IMG/VR virus record: IMGVR_UViG_3300045885_000475
Span: 1 to 53,027 of that record
Origin: a virus
Reading direction: 5' to 3' (one strand)
DNA length: 53,027 nucleotides
Positions 4,506-53,027 of this stretch are shown piece by piece. A model generated the notes under the pieces. It worked only from the letters and a program-made list of their open reading frames with translations, ran no database searches and was not told the DNA's origin. The position numbers were made by a program, and so were the translations under genes. The first letter of the stretch is position 1, and every line of letters begins with the position of its first letter.

Positions 4506-5006
4506 ATGGCAGCCACCGTCGAAATCGACGAGGCCAACGGCGCGGGAGAAACCCTCTCGCACAACGTGGCGAACTGGAACTTCGGGGCGAATGACGAGAA
4601 GGAGGTCGTCCCCGCCACCTATCCCATCGTTGCCGGACAGAACAGCTACACCAAGTACTGGAAGCTGCACGTCACCGCGATGGGCGGGTCGAACAAGATC
4701 GACAACCTCCAGGTCTGGAAGTCCGCCGGCGCCTACGTCACGGGCGAAGGAATCCAGTGCTCGCTCCGGACCTCGAGCTACGCGGCGCCGACCTACGCGA
4801 CGCCGACCCAGTCGACCTACACGGATCAGGCGATGCCGACGGCCGATCCCGCGGCCGCGAATTACGGCATCGGCGGGTCCCTCTCGGGCTCGCTTACCGG
4901 GGCTGGGTCGAGTGACTATCTCAAGGCGCAGCTGCAGACGACGGGCTCGACGCCTCCCGGCAACGTCAACCAGAAGACCTTCACGATCCAGTACGACGAG
5001 CAGTAG
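4506..5006 (+). CDS. Putative structural protein, Ser/Thr/Gly rich
   Basis: The product is 166 residues, starting at an ATG behind GAAAGGAGACGAGGTT. The composition is beta-rich with many Ser, Thr, Gly and Ala residues and no Cys-rich or catalytic motif; it resembles capsid or tail decoration domains. It ends just before the inserted LAGLIDADG gene. The function is not recognised. Confidence 0.5.
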   Translation: MAATVEIDEANGAGETLSHNVANWNFGANDEKEVVPATYPIVAGQNSYTKYWKLHVTAMGGSNKIDNLQVWKSAGAYVTGEGIQCSLRTSSYAAPTYATPTQSTYTDQAMPTADPAAANYGIGGSLSGSLTGAGSSDYLKAQLQTTGSTPPGNVNQKTFTIQYDEQ

Positions 5007-5022
5007 GAGGGCCTCATGGCCA

Positions 5023-9077: not shown

Positions 9078-9467
9078 ATGGAAGTCGTCAGGCGCAAGAT
9101 CGAGGCCGGGGCGAAGTGGTCGTTGTCGTACCTCAAGGTGGCGGCCGAGGAAGGCCGAAAGATCCTCACGCAGGACGTGCAGTATGACCACGCGGTCGAC
9201 CAGGTGGAGCTGCTGGCCTGCGAGGACGACCCGACGCACCCCAAGGCCCTCCTCGAGGTGCAGCAGCACGGCGACTTCTACGAGCTTAAGGAAAAAGGCG
9301 GGGTGCTGCGGAAGATCAACCTCCGGGTCTACTTCATCCTGGTGGACAGGCCGACGAAGACCCTGTGGGTGATCGGGTGCTACAAGAAGGAAGACGAAGG
9401 GCAGACGCCCAGGCAGATCGTGATCAAGATGAAGACGCGCGCGAAATATGTGAGGGACAGGCTGTAA
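9078..9467 (+). CDS. RelE/HigB-like (Gp49/DUF891-type) putative toxin
   Basis: The product is 129 residues. The C-terminal half carries the family pattern: basic strand KINLRVYFILVD, strand LWVIGCYKK, then TPRQIVIKMKTRAKYV, matching the HigB layout of KK...TP..EI..A. In this family the protein is an mRNA interferase that acts on translated messages. It is longer than usual, with an N-terminal helical extension (residues 1-30). It is followed after 37 bp by an HTH gene, the reversed toxin-first order of HigBA systems. It may serve plasmid-like maintenance or superinfection control. Enzyme activity is inferred. Confidence 0.65.
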   Translation: MEVVRRKIEAGAKWSLSYLKVAAEEGRKILTQDVQYDHAVDQVELLACEDDPTHPKALLEVQQHGDFYELKEKGGVLRKINLRVYFILVDRPTKTLWVIGCYKKEDEGQTPRQIVIKMKTRAKYVRDRL

Positions 9468-9504
9468 GGGGGCGGTGGACCAAGTGCAGTACGTGGGAGG
9501 AGAT

Positions 9505-9975
9505 ATGAGCCTCATGAAGGTGGACTCGGAGCGAGTGGTGCAGCTCGCAAAGATGGAGGAGATGGTGCTCGCCATCCTCCTCGATAGGATCGCGAAGCTG
9601 CCGAAGGAGGGCCAGGAGGACCTCGCGGAGTTGATGGACCTCTTCAGCAAGAGCACCACGAAGAAGGAGAGGGAGGAGATCCTGGAGTCGATGAAAGAGC
9701 TGCTCCAGCCGTCGTTGATCGGCGAGCTGGTCCAGGGTCCGATGCCGAAGTCGGGCACGAAGGACCTGGAGAACCGCGCCGCGTACCTGGGGCAGAAGAT
9801 CAAGGAGCTGCGCGCGAAGAAGAGCATGACCCAGGAGGACCTGGCCGAGCTCTCGGGGATCCCGCAGAGCTACATCAGCCGGCTGGAGGCGGGCCAGCAC
9901 AGCCCGTCGCACGCGACGCTGGAGAAGATCGCCCAGGCGCTGGGCGTCGACGTCCACCAGATCGACTACGAATAG
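9505..9975 (+). CDS. XRE-family HTH regulator / HigA-like antitoxin, possible lysogeny repressor
   Basis: The product is 156 residues from ATG 9505, chosen because GGGAGGAGAT lies directly upstream; an in-frame GTG at 9475 lacks a site. Residues 1-80 are helical and acidic, likely a dimerisation or toxin-binding part. Residues about 95-150 form a classic HTH_3 domain (KKSMTQEDLAELSGIPQSYI, then SRLEAGQHSPS). The gene is co-transcribed with the toxin-like gene and ends at a strong terminator. No other repressor is recognised in the genome, so it may double as the CI-type regulator acting at the inverted repeat 8959-8980. That dual role is inference. Confidence 0.75.
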   Translation: MSLMKVDSERVVQLAKMEEMVLAILLDRIAKLPKEGQEDLAELMDLFSKSTTKKEREEILESMKELLQPSLIGELVQGPMPKSGTKDLENRAAYLGQKIKELRAKKSMTQEDLAELSGIPQSYISRLEAGQHSPSHATLEKIAQALGVDVHQIDYE

Positions 9976-9997: not shown

Positions 9998-10025
9998 GCC
10001 CCGGTGATGAGCCGGGGCTTTTTTT
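9998..10025. terminator. Strong, probably bidirectional intrinsic terminator
   Basis: GCCCCGG (9998-10004), 7-nt loop, CCGGGGC (10012-10018), then seven T. An A-rich stretch upstream supplies T's for the opposite strand. It ends both the regulator gene and the convergent integrase gene, whose TAA stop lies in the T tract. Confidence 0.9.
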
Positions 10026-10899
10026 ATGCCCGCGGGTGCGCTCGCCGGAGGACCTCCCGGAGCCGGCCCAGGGCGACGTGCGTGTACCGCTGGGTGCTCG
10101 TGATCGACTTCTGCCCCAGGAACTCCTGGACCTCCCGGAGGTTGGCGCCCCGCTCCAGGAGGTGCGTCGCGATCGAGTGGCGGAACATGTGGGGGTGCGC
10201 CGGCCCCTCCACGCCGGCGCGCGCGGCCGCCTTCACCACGACGTCGCGGAAGGGCGTGTAGCTGATCCGCGTGCCGCGGCTCGAGATGAAGAGCGCCTGC
10301 TCGTGCTCGCGGCCGCGGCGGTGCAGGATCTTGGCGCGCTCGGGGAGCCAGGCGGCGATCGCGTCGAGCGCCGGCCGAGTGAGCTGGAGGAGGCCCTCCT
10401 TCCTTGGCTTCTGGACGACGGTGGCCAGCCCCGTCTCGAACGACAGGCGGTCGAGGTCGATCCGCCGAACCTCACGCTCGCGGCCGCCGGTCGCGTAGAG
10501 CGCCTCGAGGATGGCGCGGTTCCTCAGGTTGTGGGCGCCGCCGATCACGCGGGCGACCTGGTCCTCCGTCCAGTAGTCCGGGAGCTGCTCCTCGAGCTTG
10601 ATCGGATCCAGGTCGTCGCAGGGGTTCGCCGGCACGAGCCCCTCGCGCTTCAGGTGGTGATAGAAGCAGCGGACGGCGACGATCCCGTCCTTGATGGTCT
10701 TCGAGGTCTTCTCCTCCTGGCGCTGGTGCAGGATCCAGCGCTCAAGGAACCGGAAGTCCACGGCGAGCGTGTCGACGCCCGTGAAGGCGAGGTAGGCGCA
10801 GAACGCTTTCAGCTTGGACCCATAGACCCGGATGGTGTCCGGCGCGAAGTTGCGCGCCAAGAGGTACCGCCGCCAGCTCTCGACCAACGCCGAGAGCAT
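10024..10899 (-). CDS. Tyrosine recombinase (XerC/D-like integrase)
   Basis: The product is 291 residues from ATG 10899; a TTG at 10920 would add seven. Residues 1-95 are the SAM-like core-binding domain (FAPDTIRVYGSKLKAFCAYL). The catalytic domain has Arg140 (ATGGRERE), Lys164 (VVQKPRKEG), His237-x-x-Arg240 (HMFRH), and nucleophile Tyr272 (TQRYTHV). The usual His/Trp of the LGH motif is Gln263 (LGQKSITST), a tolerated but less common variant. It should catalyse integration/excision or dimer resolution of the circular genome. No excisionase is certain; 29622-29876 is a weak candidate. No obvious attP core is seen next to the gene. Transcribed leftward, alone. Confidence 0.9.
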   Translation of the reverse strand: MLSALVESWRRYLLARNFAPDTIRVYGSKLKAFCAYLAFTGVDTLAVDFRFLERWILHQRQEEKTSKTIKDGIVAVRCFYHHLKREGLVPANPCDDLDPIKLEEQLPDYWTEDQVARVIGGAHNLRNRAILEALYATGGREREVRRIDLDRLSFETGLATVVQKPRKEGLLQLTRPALDAIAAWLPERAKILHRRGREHEQALFISSRGTRISYTPFRDVVVKAAARAGVEGPAHPHMFRHSIATHLLERGANLREVQEFLGQKSITSTQRYTHVALGRLREVLRRAHPRA

Positions 10900-11059
10900 G
10901 GCGGACCGAGCTTCCGCCAAAAATCCCCAGCTGCTGCCCGCACCCTACCCTTTTCCCCTGCGGGCGAACCACTCTCCACGTTGCAAGCCACGGAAGCCCC
11001 GGTCGCCTGATCTACGTTCAACGCATTTTGGAAATTTCGGTTCGGGAAAATAATTTCTC
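10900..11059. other. Non-coding region between integrase and early promoter
   Basis: No gene is supported. The half nearest the integrase is GC-rich and contains its untranslated leader. The half from about 11020 is AT-richer (GCATTTTGGAAATTTCGG, then GGGAAAATAATTTC) and would suit regulator or integrase binding. An attP site could lie here, but no diagnostic core with inverted arms is visible. Confidence 0.5.
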
Positions 11060-11087
11060 TTGACACACTCGAGCCATGCGGTAGTCT
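11060..11087 (+). promoter_or_regulatory. Early rightward promoter
   Basis: A perfect -35 TTGACA (11060-11065), 16-bp spacer and TAGTCT (11082-11087). The predicted start is near 11094, exactly where the first helix of the structured leader begins. It should drive the whole early operon to the terminator at 29896. Confidence 0.75.
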
Positions 11088-11093
11088 CATCAC

Positions 11094-11309
11094 CGGAGAC
11101 AAGCGCGTGATGATTCAGAGCCCGGCGACTCCTGCCCGCCCACCGGTCGTAGCGCTTGTCTCCAACACGCCTGTGGCCGGTGGGGCAGGGCTCGGCGGGC
11201 TCGATTTGGCGGGTCAGGCTTCCCATCAGGCGCGGCCGGAATAGTTGAAAGTCTCGGACTTCGACTAGTCGGCCCCTGATGGTGAAGCCTCCCGCAACGG
11301 GAGGCAGCA
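11094..11309 (+). ncRNA. Highly structured early leader RNA (candidate cis-regulatory RNA)
   Basis: Directly after the promoter lies a chain of perfect helices. P1: 12 bp, 11095-11106 with 11152-11163, enclosing 45 nt. An alternative to P1: 11132-11137 and 11141-11146 pair with 11177-11188 (12 bp, 3-nt bulge). P3: 11223-11230 and 11234-11238 with 11270-11282 (13 bp), capped by 11243-11253/11257-11266 with a 3-nt loop. P4: GCCTCCCG (11287-11294) with CGGGAGGC (11298-11305). P4 contains the Shine-Dalgarno of the gene starting at GTG 11310. The arrangement is that of a leader whose refolding frees or hides the ribosome site. No match to a named riboswitch or phage RNA class was recognised. Confidence 0.6.
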
Positions 11310-11696
11310 GTGGTAGTGCGAGACGGGGAGGGGGCTTCCAAGAAATCCCCCTCTGAGGGCCCATGTGACCTCCGACCCACGGAGGCCCTGGTCGGGCCCT
11401 TTCAATCTTCGGGCCCGGTCATCCGGGTGGTCTGCAGGCGCTGCGGCGCCGTCCTGAGCGAAGGGGAGCCCGGGGCGGTCGAGCAGCTCGTGGTGTGCGG
11501 CCGCTGCGACCGGGACACCAGGCCGGCGCAGCAGCGCGAGTACTTCCCGGCCGTCCCCCAGGAGCCCCGCCGGTCGATCGAGGAGCAGACGTTCCTCGCG
11601 TACCTCCGGGGCCTGGGCCTCGAGGCCCTGCCGGTGATCCTCCTCGTCCCCACGGCCCTCCTCTGGGCGGTCAGCGCCCGGGCGGTGCTGGCGTGA
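11310..11696 (+). CDS. Zinc-ribbon protein with C-terminal membrane segment; first early gene
   Basis: The product is 128 residues. GTG 11310 is chosen because GGGAGG ends five bases upstream; that site is paired in the leader hairpin 11287-11305. Residues 1-36 are low-complexity and overlap further RNA helices. A CRRCGAVL...CGRCD zinc ribbon follows at about 42-66, and the C-terminus (about 104-126) is one hydrophobic helix. An alternative start is GTG 11427, just before the ribbon. It may anchor a nucleic-acid or protein-binding ribbon to the membrane. Function not recognised. It overlaps the next gene (GTGA). Confidence 0.55.
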   Translation: MVVRDGEGASKKSPSEGPCDLRPTEALVGPFQSSGPVIRVVCRRCGAVLSEGEPGAVEQLVVCGRCDRDTRPAQQREYFPAVPQEPRRSIEEQTFLAYLRGLGLEALPVILLVPTALLWAVSARAVLA

Positions 11697-12422: not shown

Positions 12423-13240
12423 CGGAGAAGCTGATCGAAGTCCGCCAGTCCGCGCTCAACGACTTCGAGCTCTGCGGCGAGATGTTCCGCCGGAAGCACA
12501 TCGAGAAGGAGGCGGCCCCGCCTGGGACAGCCGCGCTCCGCGGCGGCGCCGTCCACGTCGGCGCGCAGAAGAACCACGAGCACAAGAAGGCCCAGGGCGC
12601 CGACCTCCCGAAGAAGGAGATCATCGAGATCGCCGTCGCCGGCCTCGAGGAGAAGAAGGCGAAGGAGGGCTTCCGGCTCACGCCCGAGGAGATGGGCGCC
12701 GGCGTCCGGACCACCCTGGCGCGGACGGTCGAGTCGGTGACGACGCTCACCGGCCTCTACGCGGACAAGGTCGCGCCGGCGATGAAGCCCGACCTGATCG
12801 AGCAGGAGGCGAAGTTCATCCTGCCGAACGGCGTGGTCTTCGGCGGCCGTCTGGACCTCTCGACCTCCGACAACCGAGTGAAGGACCTCAAGACCTCCGG
12901 GCGATCGAAGAGCCAAAAGGACGCCGACGACTCGCTCCAGGGGACGCAGTACTGGCTGCTTTTCACGAAGCTCAAAGGTCACGAGCCCGCGGGCTTCGAC
13001 CTTGAGGTCCTGGTCGACCTCAAGACCCCCAAGCACCAGCACATCGAGACGCACCGGACCCGGAAGGACGTCGAGGTCCTCATCAACCGCGCCAACGTGA
13101 TGCTCAAGTCCAACCAGCTCGGGATCTTCGCGCCGGCCGCGGTCGGCTCCTGGATTTGCACGCCCAAGTGGTGCCCCTTCTGGGATTCCTGCCCCTTCGT
13201 GAACTCGGAGCGGATGAAGGCCGCGGAGGCGCAGGAATGA
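12419..13240 (+). CDS. PD-(D/E)XK nuclease, RecB/Cas4-like
   Basis: The product is 273 residues from GTG 12419. The RecB-nuclease signature is complete: Cys19 in the N-terminal LxxC segment, His46 (GGAVHVG), Asp146 (GGRLDLS), Asp156-x-Lys158 (KDLKTS) and a QxxxY motif (174-178). Three further Cys at 247, 252 and 258 (ICTPKWCPFWDSC) with Cys19 make a likely 4Fe-4S cluster, as in Cas4 and AddB. It should be a single-strand exonuclease that prepares ends for the annealing protein encoded two genes downstream. Confidence 0.85.
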   Translation: MTEKLIEVRQSALNDFELCGEMFRRKHIEKEAAPPGTAALRGGAVHVGAQKNHEHKKAQGADLPKKEIIEIAVAGLEEKKAKEGFRLTPEEMGAGVRTTLARTVESVTTLTGLYADKVAPAMKPDLIEQEAKFILPNGVVFGGRLDLSTSDNRVKDLKTSGRSKSQKDADDSLQGTQYWLLFTKLKGHEPAGFDLEVLVDLKTPKHQHIETHRTRKDVEVLINRANVMLKSNQLGIFAPAAVGSWICTPKWCPFWDSCPFVNSERMKAAEAQE

Positions 13241-13704
13241 TCGGTCAACGCTTTGGCCGCTGGGAGGTCCTCGCCTTCGCCGGAGTGACGGCGTACCACG
13301 CGCGCGTCTGGGCGTGTCGCTGCGACTGCGGCCGCGAGGGAAAGGTCCTGGAGCAGAACCTGAAGCGAGGAAAGAGCGCCCGCTGCAAGGCGTGCCACAA
13401 CAAGGCGGCCGCGACTCGGCACGGCGGCTCGACCACACCCGAATACCTGATCTGGGGGACGATGATCCAGCGCTGCACGAACCCCAACGTGCGGCGCTGG
13501 GTCGACTACGGCGGCCGCGGCATCCAGGTCTGCGACCGCTGGCGCAACTCCTTCGAGGCTTTCTTCCAGGATCTCGGCCCCCGCCCGAGTCCCGAGTACT
13601 CCATCGACCGCATCGACAACGACGGGAACTACGAGCCCGGCAATGTGCGCTGGGCTACGGCAGAAGAACAGGCCAACAATCGCCGGCCTCGGCAGCCGGC
13701 CTGA
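13237..13704 (+). CDS. HNH homing endonuclease with N-terminal zinc finger
   Basis: The product is 155 residues, with an ATGA overlap with the nuclease gene. Cys27, 29, 31, 50 and 53 form a zinc-binding module. The HNH core is IDRIDNDGNYEPGNVRWAT (about 123-141), then QANNRR. It is related to the reverse-strand protein at 48376-48918, with which it shares the YEPGNVRWAT core and the zinc part. Free-standing HNH genes of this type cleave relatives lacking the insertion. Base composition is similar to the neighbours, so the insertion may be old. Confidence 0.88.
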   Translation: MIGQRFGRWEVLAFAGVTAYHARVWACRCDCGREGKVLEQNLKRGKSARCKACHNKAAATRHGGSTTPEYLIWGTMIQRCTNPNVRRWVDYGGRGIQVCDRWRNSFEAFFQDLGPRPSPEYSIDRIDNDGNYEPGNVRWATAEEQANNRRPRQPA

Positions 13705-13718
13705 GAAAGGAGACGGAT

Positions 13719-14825
13719 GTGGCGAACGGAAAGACGGCGGTAGCGGGCCCGATGACCGACTCCGAGGAACTGCCCTCGATGCCGGCGGATCTCCTGGCGC
13801 AGGGGAAGTCCCTGATGAAGGCGGGGACGCCATTCGTGACGGCGATCTCCGTCCAGAAGCCCCGGGACCTGGACAAGGTGGTGGCGGCGATCGACCGCGA
13901 GGCCGAGTACGCCGGCGACTCCTTCTGGTATGGGTGGGTCGACAAGAAGGGCAACCGGATCGAAGGCCCGTCGATCGGCCTGGCCAACAGCCTCGCGCGC
14001 GAGTGGACGAACTGCGCGGTGACCTGCGCCCTCGAGGAGAACGAGGAGGCGTTCTACATCACCTCCCGGTTCATCGATCTCGAGAAGGGTTCGCAAATGG
14101 AGCGCATCTTCCGTCAGCGGAAGAACTCCGTCGCGGGCAACTTCGACCCCGACCGCAAGCTCGACATGGCGCTCCAGATCGGAAGCTCCAAGGCGATCCG
14201 GAACGTCGTGTGCAACTCGGTCCCGCGGTGGCTCGTCGAGCGCGCGATCGAGAAGGCGAAGCTGGCGGTCCAGAAGAAGATCGACCCCAAGAAGCTGGAC
14301 GAGCACAAGGCGAACGCGCTCGCTTTCTTCAAGAAGTACGGCGTGACCCAGGAGCAACTGGTCTTCAAGGCCGGGAAGCCCATGGCCGAGTGGACCACGC
14401 GCGAGATCGCCGACTTCCAGGCCGACGCCAAGGCGCTGCAGAACGGCGAGGCCTCGGTCGCCGACCTCTTCCCCTCCCCCGAGACGAAGGCCCCCGAGGG
14501 CCCGATCACGGGCAAGGCGGTCGCCGACGCCATCATGCCCGACAAGCCCGCGGAGGCCGCCCCGGAGGCGGGCCCGAGCGCCGAAGAGCAGGAGCGGATC
14601 CGGCTGCGCGAGATCGCGTCCACCAAGGCGATGCAGTGCAGCTGGTGCGGCGGCCTCTACGGCGCCGACACCGTCGAGGAGATGGACGCGCACATCGAGA
14701 AGGACCACCCGGGCAAGCCGACCTCCGGTCGTCCGAAACCCACCCCCTCGACTCAGAAGGCTCCGGCGGCGCCCTCCAAGGCCCCGCCGGCGAAGCCGGG
14801 AGGCCCTGGCCTCTTCGGCTCGTAG
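13719..14825 (+). CDS. Putative single-strand annealing/recombination protein with C2H2 finger
   Basis: The product is 368 residues from GTG 13719 behind GAAAGGAGACGGAT; the ATG two bases earlier opens a frame that stops at once. Residues about 60-190 resemble phage recombinase-like proteins that carry GPSIGLANSLAREW followed by a conserved Arg/Lys-rich block (KAIRNVVCNSVPRWLVERAI). These occur beside RecB-like nucleases. A linker follows, then CSWCGGLYGADTVEEMDAHI ending in a second His, a C2H2-like finger near residue 305, and a Pro/Ala-rich tail ending GLFGS. It likely binds single-stranded DNA and promotes annealing. Family assignment is from pattern memory. Confidence 0.6.
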   Translation: MANGKTAVAGPMTDSEELPSMPADLLAQGKSLMKAGTPFVTAISVQKPRDLDKVVAAIDREAEYAGDSFWYGWVDKKGNRIEGPSIGLANSLAREWTNCAVTCALEENEEAFYITSRFIDLEKGSQMERIFRQRKNSVAGNFDPDRKLDMALQIGSSKAIRNVVCNSVPRWLVERAIEKAKLAVQKKIDPKKLDEHKANALAFFKKYGVTQEQLVFKAGKPMAEWTTREIADFQADAKALQNGEASVADLFPSPETKAPEGPITGKAVADAIMPDKPAEAAPEAGPSAEEQERIRLREIASTKAMQCSWCGGLYGADTVEEMDAHIEKDHPGKPTSGRPKPTPSTQKAPAAPSKAPPAKPGGPGLFGS

Positions 14826-14841
14826 GCCGAGCCTCAACGAA

Positions 14842-14871
14842 GGAGGGCTCCTCCACAGCGGGGAGCCCTCC
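14842..14871 (+). promoter_or_regulatory. Strong intergenic hairpin
   Basis: A perfect 10-bp stem GGAGGGCTCC/GGAGCCCTCC with a 10-nt loop, between the recombination protein and the next gene. There is no T tract, so it is more likely an RNA-stability or attenuation element than a terminator. Confidence 0.5.
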
Positions 14872-14886
14872 GGTGGAGGCTCGACC

Positions 14887-15222
14887 ATGACGAACATGCA
14901 GCAGCCGGGCCCGCGCGACCTGGAGCGCCGGCTCAAGGAGCAGGGGCTCATGCTGACCCGGCTCAAGCGCGAGCGCGAGCAGATCGAGGAGGACCTGGTC
15001 GCCGCGCAGCTCGACAGCCAGCTGACCGGAGACAAGTACCTCCGGGCCGATGACAAGCGCACCAAGGTCCGGATGGAGCTGGAGCGGCTCACCACCTTCA
15101 TCAAGCTCAGGCACTGGTCGACCCACCCGAAGCACAAGCGTCGGCCGGCCTACGGCTGCGACTTCTGCGCGCAGATCGCGTCGGCCGAGAAGGTTAAGCA
15201 CGAGACGGGTCCGGAATTTTGA
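14887..15222 (+). CDS. Coiled-coil protein with CxxC
   Basis: The product is 111 residues. Residues 10-80 are a strongly charged, heptad-like helix, and the C-terminus has HWSTHPKHKRRPAYGCDFCA with one CxxC. No family is recognised. It sits between the annealing protein and the SbcC-like ATPase and could be an accessory subunit of either; its last codons overlap the TTG-containing leader of the ATPase gene. Confidence 0.6.
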   Translation: MTNMQQPGPRDLERRLKEQGLMLTRLKREREQIEEDLVAAQLDSQLTGDKYLRADDKRTKVRMELERLTTFIKLRHWSTHPKHKRRPAYGCDFCAQIASAEKVKHETGPEF

Positions 15223-51340: not shown

Positions 51341-53027
51341 GCCTGCTCGTCATGCGTCTCGTCTCGGCCTACTCGATCGACGAGATCCGGGCCATCCCCC
51401 ATGAGGATCGCCGACGGACCGAGGTGATCCTGCGGCCCTCCAACGAGCGGTACCTCTTCGACCCCGCCAGCACGGAAGAGGATGACGGGGACGAAGTCCT
51501 CGAGCCTGACGACGCCGGCTGCACCTGCTGCGCGGAACAAGGCCGCTGGATCAAGGACTTCGACGAGGAGCCTGTCGGTTTCCCCACCGCCGATCTCCTC
51601 GGAACCCCGAACCAGGTCAGCCTCTCCGCGAGCGGCGAAGACGTCCTCGTGGGGGATACGGACATCACTCTCTCGCTCCCTCAGGACATCCACTCCGGAG
51701 CGAGCCCCACGTTCGCATCGCTCAGTCTGACGGCCGCGACGAACCAGATCGTCCTCGACAGCGACGCGATCCTGACCGGCACGATCACGATCGCCACCCT
51801 CACGGCTTCGAGAATCTGGACCTTGCCGGATGCGGACGGAACGCTTCTGATCGGATCAGGAGTCGCCGGCCAGGTCGCCTATTGGAGCGACGCGAACACG
51901 CTCGCGGGCGATGCGGGCCACACCTTCAACTCTGCGACCGGGCTAATGACTCTCGGCAAGAGCGGCGTGTCGGCAATCTTCCGCGTGTTTGCGTCCGACG
52001 GGGTGAAGTACACGCAGTTCTACGCGGACGGGATCAACAACAACGCGAGCAGGTCGTTCCAGTTCGGAGCGCAGGTCAGCGCGGTCGAGCCCTTGAACAG
52101 CGGCGGCGCGAACCTCGGCGGGTCCGGAGCCGAGTGGAAGGACATCTACGCCGTCGACGGCCTAGGGACGGCTTCGCTCACCTGGGCAAGCTCCAAATTG
52201 ACGATCACGGCGACCCCTGGCGCTCAGCTCCGGCTGGCCTACGACGGGAGCAACTATACCGAGATCACGACGAACTCCTCTGGCCGGACCACCTTCACCA
52301 ACACCGGCAACATCATGTTCTTCGATCAGACTTCCGCCGGTGGAACGACGACCTGGGGGGCGCTCAATCGAAGCACTGCGGCAGGCTCCAACTGCATGCT
52401 CCAGGTGTCCACGAACAGCGGGACGGCGGGCGACCCGTTCATTCTCTTCGAGATCGACGGCGTTTCCAACTGGACCATCGGCCCAAGAAACAGCGTCGGC
52501 GACGAGTTTAGGATCAGCCCTGGCGCGACTCTGGCGACGGCCCCGCATTTCACCATCGCCACGACCGGAGCCACCACGATCCACCAGTGGCTCAACGCCG
52601 GCACCGCCACCGCCGCGACCGCGCAGGGTCAGATTGCCTTCAGCGCGCAGACCTTTGGGCCGACGGGCGCTCTTGCTGCCACACCCACCTACAGCTTCGT
52701 GGGGAATACGAATACCGGCATTTACGGAATTGCTAGCGGCTTCCGCGCTAGCACGGCGGGTACGGGCCGTTTCCAGTGGAGCACGGCGGCTTACGTGGTT
52801 TCCTCGGACATCTACCTGGGGTGGATTGACACCACGTCCATGGAAACGGCCACGGTGCACGATGTCCGTCTCTACAGAGACGCCGCTGCGCAGCTCGCTC
52901 TTCGGAACGGCACCACGGCGGCGCAAAGTTTCTTCATCTACGAAACCTTTACCGACGCCTCCAACTACGCCCGCCTTCAGCTGACCACCCAGGCAGGGGA
53001 CTACGGCCTCGTGACGACGGCGGCGGG
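51337..53027 (+). CDS. Tail fibre protein, N-terminal part (continues at base 2)
   Basis: The gene starts at ATG 51337, overlapping the hub stop, and remains open to the window end; in the circular genome it continues to 1378. Residues 1-75 are a small adaptor-like domain related to the protein at 34420. A fibre shaft with SGASPTFASLSLTA and WTLPDADGTLLIG, frequent in phage fibres, follows, then several beta-repeat blocks. Residues 45-75 include CTCC, unusual for a fibre. Total about 1013 residues. It determines host binding. Confidence 0.88.
   Translation, partial: MSLLVMRLVSAYSIDEIRAIPHEDRRRTEVILRPSNERYLFDPASTEEDDGDEVLEPDDAGCTCCAEQGRWIKDFDEEPVGFPTADLLGTPNQVSLSASGEDVLVGDTDITLSLPQDIHSGASPTFASLSLTAATNQIVLDSDAILTGTITIATLTASRIWTLPDADGTLLIGSGVAGQVAYWSDANTLAGDAGHTFNSATGLMTLGKSGVSAIFRVFASDGVKYTQFYADGINNNASRSFQFGAQVSAVEPLNSGGANLGGSGAEWKDIYAVDGLGTASLTWASSKLTITATPGAQLRLAYDGSNYTEITTNSSGRTTFTNTGNIMFFDQTSAGGTTTWGALNRSTAAGSNCMLQVSTNSGTAGDPFILFEIDGVSNWTIGPRNSVGDEFRISPGATLATAPHFTIATTGATTIHQWLNAGTATAATAQGQIAFSAQTFGPTGALAATPTYSFVGNTNTGIYGIASGFRASTAGTGRFQWSTAAYVVSSDIYLGWIDTTSMETATVHDVRLYRDAAAQLALRNGTTAAQSFFIYETFTDASNYARLQLTTQAGDYGLVTTAA
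53001..53027. repeat. Terminal overlap, copy 2
   Basis: Identical to bases 1-27; marks the circular closure of the assembly. Confidence 0.95.

Follow-up and report, generated by a model that had tools for sequence, protein, structure and literature searches.

To our knowledge, only a handful of phages (P4, P1/P7 and N15) use RNA for prophage immunity, and every phage in which recombination is known to switch the early genes has a protein repressor. In P1 and P7, the c4 antisense RNA shares a transcript with its target. Structured leaders can also work in cis, precedents being RNase III leaders and the put hairpins of HK022, an antiterminator RNA that acts in cis through conserved sequence. 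In P4, the CI RNA is processed from the leader and has two pairing targets, the upstream seqA and the downstream seqC, leading to premature termination (PMC4825925). In mycobacteriophage BPs, immunity depends on integration, and attP lies inside the protein repressor gene (PMC4557955).

The window analysed here, the whole 53,027-bp stretch of IMG/VR record IMGVR_UViG_3300045885_000475, is a temperate phage of an uncultured bacterium with genes for terminase, portal, head and tail. Bases 1-27 are identical to 53001-53027, an end repeat of 27 nt suggesting that the map is probably circular and complete. A tyrosine recombinase (integrase) gene on the minus strand (10024-10920; Phage_integrase, E 1.9e-34) is divergent from the early promoter, and no gene lies in the interval between them. 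The early operon comprises genes for a zinc-ribbon-like protein (11310), phrog_1273 (11693), a phage exonuclease (12416), an HNH endonuclease (13234-13701, between the exonuclease and RecT genes), a RecT-like protein (13704), an SMC/AAA protein (15219), ParB (17634) and a sigma factor (19953). Single-protein searches of IMG/VR and GTDB with the integrase, major capsid protein, terminase and first gene found no relatives. Two syntenic IMG/VR relatives, L203 (a 50-kb contig) and L205 (45 kb), were found with an alignment of the AAA protein to a distant homologue. Their exonucleases are 85% and 66% identical to that of the window, and their AAA proteins 52% and 49%; L203 is collinear over most of its genome, and the conserved part of L205 is the early module. 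Both have the order integrase (minus strand), promoter, leader and first gene, the integrase (33-38% identity) keeping its place and strand. The HNH gene is apparently missing from both relatives, where the exonuclease and RecT genes adjoin.

The early promoter of the window, TTGACA N16 TAGTCT, occupies 11060-11087 on the plus strand (-35 box at 11060-11065, -10 box at 11082-11087), with an expected +1 at about 11094. A simple sigma-70 scan of the window did not list it because its -10 box is weak, and it is credible because both relatives have matching promoters (TTGACA N16 TATACT in L203, TTGACT N16 CATAAT in L205), in which TTGAC is invariant. A sequence-only reading of this DNA had proposed the promoter and a structured regulatory leader for the early operon and had recognised no named RNA class, and on these points the analysis agrees with it. 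The leader (11094-11330) folds at -123.8 kcal/mol, against -102.4 ± 4.5 kcal/mol in dinucleotide shuffles (z -4.75), and shows strong compensatory change in the relatives; its structure is beyond chance and supports a regulatory RNA of the early operon. Rfam covariance models, that of C4 antisense RNA among them, gave no match above the gathering score for the leaders of the window, L203 or L205, and comparison of the leader with the phage collection found no similar sequence.

The conserved feature of this leader, as seen in the aligned sequences, is the pairing of its 5′ end with the loop of a hairpin. The predicted 5′ end of the transcript, here called seqA (GGAGACAAGCGC, 11095-11106, plus strand), is a perfect complement of seqB (GCGCTTGTCTCC, 11152-11163, plus strand), which lies in the apical loop of hairpin A, and the pair is the only inverted repeat of at least 12 nt within 10800-11500. 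The corresponding segments are GATGAGCAAGGGC/GCTCTTGCTCATC in L203 and GTGACACACGCGA/TCGCGTGTGTCAC in L205, where seqA measures 13 nt rather than 12. In all three phages seqA starts 6-7 nt after the -10 box, and seqB is found 42-49 nt beyond seqA, where a hairpin of about 30 bp has its apical loop. This 12-bp helix had been named earlier as only one among several; it is present, and its pairing is what the three phages conserve. Covariation among relatives, by which the stems were to be judged, is seen for this helix: over an alignment of 13 pairs, the three phages are 100% paired; at 8 positions both partners differ between phages, no pair is lost and one is G-U (in L203), counts that come from three leaders, and thus from few events, and from strands selected because they pair. 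Independent of that choice of strands are the fixed places of seqA, at +1, and of seqB, in the hairpin A loop, and the fact that both relatives showing them were found by protein similarity. None of 500 shuffles matched the pattern of pairing and change, and slid registers are 24-63% paired. The longest complementarity to the 5′ end is 12-14 bp in the three leaders, whereas shuffles average 7; the observed lengths are attained in 15, 1 and 1 of 2000 shuffles, respectively. An exact-match descriptor, run with strict settings on both strands of 2.97 Mb of collected sequence, matched the window, L205 and one more place that overlaps coding frames, suggesting that this anatomy of seqA, seqB and hairpin is rare. 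The three genomes hold no further exact copies of seqA or seqB. Dispersed operators or stoperators were considered and rejected, as the window has no more near matches to seqA than chance would give.

Two strong hairpins fill the leader downstream of seqA. Hairpin A (11118-11202, plus strand) has about 30 bp and an apical region at about 11147-11174 (z -5.96, reached by 0 of 200 shuffles), with counterparts at 4694-4802 in L203 (z -6.6) and 4950-5053 in L205 (z -5.8). Hairpin B is a long inverted repeat (11209-11295, plus strand; z -7.16, again reached by 0 of 200 shuffles) and the most extreme plus-strand fold of the window after GC correction. The chain of helices that the sequence-only reading described is thus present, but its helices do not all form together: seqA/seqB competes with hairpin A, and the Shine-Dalgarno hairpin with the base of hairpin B. 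The seqA/seqB helix and hairpin A are mutually exclusive in nested folds, the only kind that a folding program without pseudoknots returns; a pseudoknotted state may also exist, in which seqA remains bound to the loop while hairpin A has formed no more than its upper part. A full leader in which the seqA/seqB helix is imposed is about 10-11 kcal/mol less stable (11 in the window). In minimum free energy folds of the growing transcript, seqA and seqB are paired from about 70 nt in all three phages (76 nt in L205), and hairpin A displaces them at a transcript length of 100-105 nt in all three.

By analogy with the CI RNA of P4, we propose that the leader acts as a cotranscriptional switch for self-directed, sequence-specific control of the early operon, a reading to which we tentatively assign a probability of roughly 0.4. 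Starting from the observed anatomy, its conservation, the compensatory changes and the predicted order of refolding, we infer transcription of the leader, processing of a small RNA, action in trans, a regulatory output and immunity. In the emerging transcript, the 5′ end (seqA) would first pair with the downstream seqB. When transcription has passed the 3′ arm of hairpin A (at about +100), this hairpin would take over, free the 5′ end and show seqB in its loop. Through this loop a short RNA with hairpin A could then bind newly made early transcripts at their 5′ end, which would block their seqA/seqB helix and lower the early operon through termination or lost translation. The early operon would be held down in this manner in the lysogen, if the analogy with P4 is sound. 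The need for seqA and seqB to match would let related phages diverge in these sequences and thereby in immunity. A search of the window, L203 and L205 found no Peptidase_S24-type repressor (the control for this search was detected in 12 of 14 genomes), which, with the lack of any gene between integrase and promoter, supports RNA-based control. An XRE-type HTH gene is present elsewhere in each of the three genomes, and its protein could serve as a repressor in these phages.

The likeness to P4 begins with the arrangement: both are temperate phages in which a segment near +1 is complementary to a downstream segment of the leader, the matching pair would set specificity, and seqB is predicted, in the window, L203 and L205, to be presented in the loop of a stable hairpin. 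The P4 sequence has an 8-bp match, CCGGCGAT (8406-8399) with GTCGCCGG (8266-8259), at the places where its seqA and seqB are expected. Unlike in P4, the match here measures 12-13 bp rather than 8 and stands exactly at +1, with its partner in the loop of a 30-bp hairpin about 45 nt away. A search for seqC, a second target downstream of the RNA, found no loop pairing better than shuffles, and for want of a seqC, of sequence homology and of an Rfam match the leader falls outside the P4 system. The antisense RNA and its target would lie on one transcript, as with c4 of P1 and P7, but the target here would be the transcript's own 5′ end rather than an antirepressor message. If correct, our proposal would describe an independent form of RNA immunity in an uncultured lineage, with the first 12-13 bases of the transcript as target and a loop 45 bases on as effector. 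Such a design would be simpler than those of the known RNA immunities, the system reducing to about 110 nt. The leader RNA is real and conserved, with a predicted switch between 5′ end and loop; that its mechanism is P4-like we consider plausible, at a little short of even odds.

The main rival to this proposal is a switch that works purely in cis, with seqA/seqB giving way to hairpin A in order to set timing, pausing, antitermination or transcript stability. Its appeal lies in the refolding order, which is a property of one molecule, in the two stable hairpins placed in tandem directly after the early promoter, as in put of HK022, and in the failure to find a second trans target. A cis helix alone, however, has no need of near-complete turnover of letters with its partner held in a hairpin loop, and the three leaders have no put-like conserved sequence in common; here, unlike in HK022, the letters turn over and the 5′-end/loop pairing is retained. 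Against our own proposal, a U-tract after hairpin A is clear in L203 only, partial in L205 and absent in the window, so that intrinsic termination is not conserved. Sequence cannot separate trans action from a purely cis switch, and we regard the latter as possible, though on the improbable side of even odds.

A different objection arises from the neighbouring integrase gene. If seqA and seqB were inverted protein sites (integrase arm sites or a repressor operator) and hairpin B an integrase core site, the RNA fold would be a by-product of DNA elements. Besides the adjoining integrase, two details fit such an arrangement: L203 has a tRNA 5′ half at this place, and hairpin B of L205, TTCGCCGGTA-GCAAGG-ATTATCGGCGAA, resembles a recombinase core site. 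We nevertheless consider it unlikely. First, the centre-to-centre spacing of seqA and seqB varies across the three phages (55, 57 and 62 bp) and is out of helical phase. Second, a 30-bp hairpin always carries the complement in its apical loop, and the site is without further copies. Finally, plus-strand folds are more stable than minus-strand folds and contain more G-U pairs (8, 10 and 5 in the three phages, against 3, 6 and 3), and a G-U pair occurs within seqA/seqB of L203; this stability and the G-U excess on the transcribed strand favour an RNA over a DNA palindrome.

The tRNA segment of L203 is of interest in itself. Positions 4846-4881 of that phage, between hairpin A and the first gene, are the reverse complement of a tRNA 5′ half, with matches in 6 of 6 bacterial genomes tested, most of the scanned loci being called tRNA genes. 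A 32-nt form, with at most 2 mismatches, occurs in 8 of 294 Planctomycetota genomes (two of the matches perfect) and in 0 of 399 Pseudomonadota genomes, and the five loci at which ARAGORN calls a tRNA at the match are tRNA-Val(GAC). These matches suggest the host phylum of L203; the uncultured lineage concerned is probably one of Planctomycetota. Integrase attachment sites are usually marked by such a tRNA match, and L203 4846-4881 is probably an attP inside the leader. As a candidate attP it is unusual in corresponding to the 5′ half of the tRNA rather than the 3′ half. Hairpin B of the window and L205 occupies the place of this tRNA-Val 5′ half, and an attP at hairpin B in these two phages is a conjecture; searches of plasmids and of the 294 Planctomycetota genomes gave no convincing attB match for either. 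Exonuclease searches for lysogens returned only 28-30% identical proteins or nothing.

With a probable attP within the leader, integration of L203 would sever the early promoter from the early genes: one end of the prophage would keep the promoter with seqA and hairpin A, and the early operon would lie at the opposite end. It is conceivable, although we think it doubtful, that RNA immunity in these phages is coupled to integration in this way, the integrated promoter driving a small RNA that acts through its loop on the early leader of superinfecting phage of the same type and silences it, with no need for a protein repressor. The lytic operon would lose its promoter on integration and regain it on excision, and the promoter at the prophage edge would become a dedicated gene for the small RNA. 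The resemblance to BPs is one of logic only, namely that the attachment site lies in the immunity region and integration alters regulation, which is likely for L203. Unlike the attP of BPs, that of L203 probably lies in noncoding DNA, in the leader that separates the first early gene from the early promoter. If an attP in the leader holds beyond L203, recombination itself would turn the early genes off.

The sequence-only reading had placed the output of the leader in its last helix, where the ribosome site of the first early gene would be hidden in response to a ligand, a protein or the state of the host. The hairpin concerned, GCCTCCC-GCAAC-GGGAGGC (11287-11305, plus strand), does exist and holds the Shine-Dalgarno GGGAGG that precedes GTG 11310, but the Shine-Dalgarno is predicted to be about 34-52% unpaired and is not locked. 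It shares 11287-11293 with the base of hairpin B, and the two alternatives are isoenergetic (-123.8 against -123.7). Similar small hairpins precede the GTG at 4941-4955 in L203 and at about 5092-5111 in L205. A translational riboswitch or protein-bound leader could exploit the 7-bp hairpin of the window, an equal-energy rival of the base of hairpin B, as a switch, and small hairpins stand before the GTG in all three leaders. Sequestration as the conserved output is not supported, however, being a roughly 50:50 equilibrium in the window, with the Shine-Dalgarno predicted to be mostly open in L203 and L205. Riboswitch aptamers retain unpaired sequence, whereas the relatives have no conserved unpaired core and the three leaders share little unpaired sequence beyond short flanks of helices. 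This turnover argues against a ligand riboswitch, and ligand sensing is not supported; the leader also matches no Rfam class. On present evidence the leader is not a riboswitch, and the wider explanation through a hidden Shine-Dalgarno seems to us highly improbable. An exact search for the Shine-Dalgarno hairpin returned one unrelated contig, in which a hairpin of GCCTCCCGCAACGGGAGGC separates two genes.

The first early gene (11310-11696, plus strand) encodes a CxxC zinc-ribbon-like protein of 128 aa with a hydrophobic C-terminus and no Pfam match; its counterparts lie at 4959-5240 in L203 and 5112-5552 in L205. GTG 11310 is a plausible start but not a secure one, because GC3 is low in the first 40 codons (0.72 in window 11310-11430, compared with 0.98 over the remaining codons; 0.63 against 0.91 in L203). 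The real start may lie further downstream, or RNA structure may limit codon choice. Directly after the GTG stands hairpin C, GAGGGGG...CCCCCTC (11324-11358, plus strand), whose counterpart in L203, GAGAGGGGA...TTCCCCTCTC (about 4978-5016), has changed letters.

Several further elements were noted in these genomes. In the window, 9078-9975 holds the gene of a small protein followed by that of an XRE protein with a C-terminal HTH; by eye, the pair looks like a HigB/HigA-type toxin-antitoxin, the small protein having no Pfam match above the cut-off. Between the convergent XRE and integrase genes, GCCCCGG...CCGGGGC followed by a T-run (9999-10026) is likely a terminator. Terminase alignments reached only 47% identity, and the most collinear of the contigs collected at that stage, the relative G021, ends before the leader. 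A very strong hairpin (14790-14886, z -5.0) occupies the gap preceding the gene at 14887 of the window, and in G021 the gap upstream of the AAA gene likewise seems to be structured.
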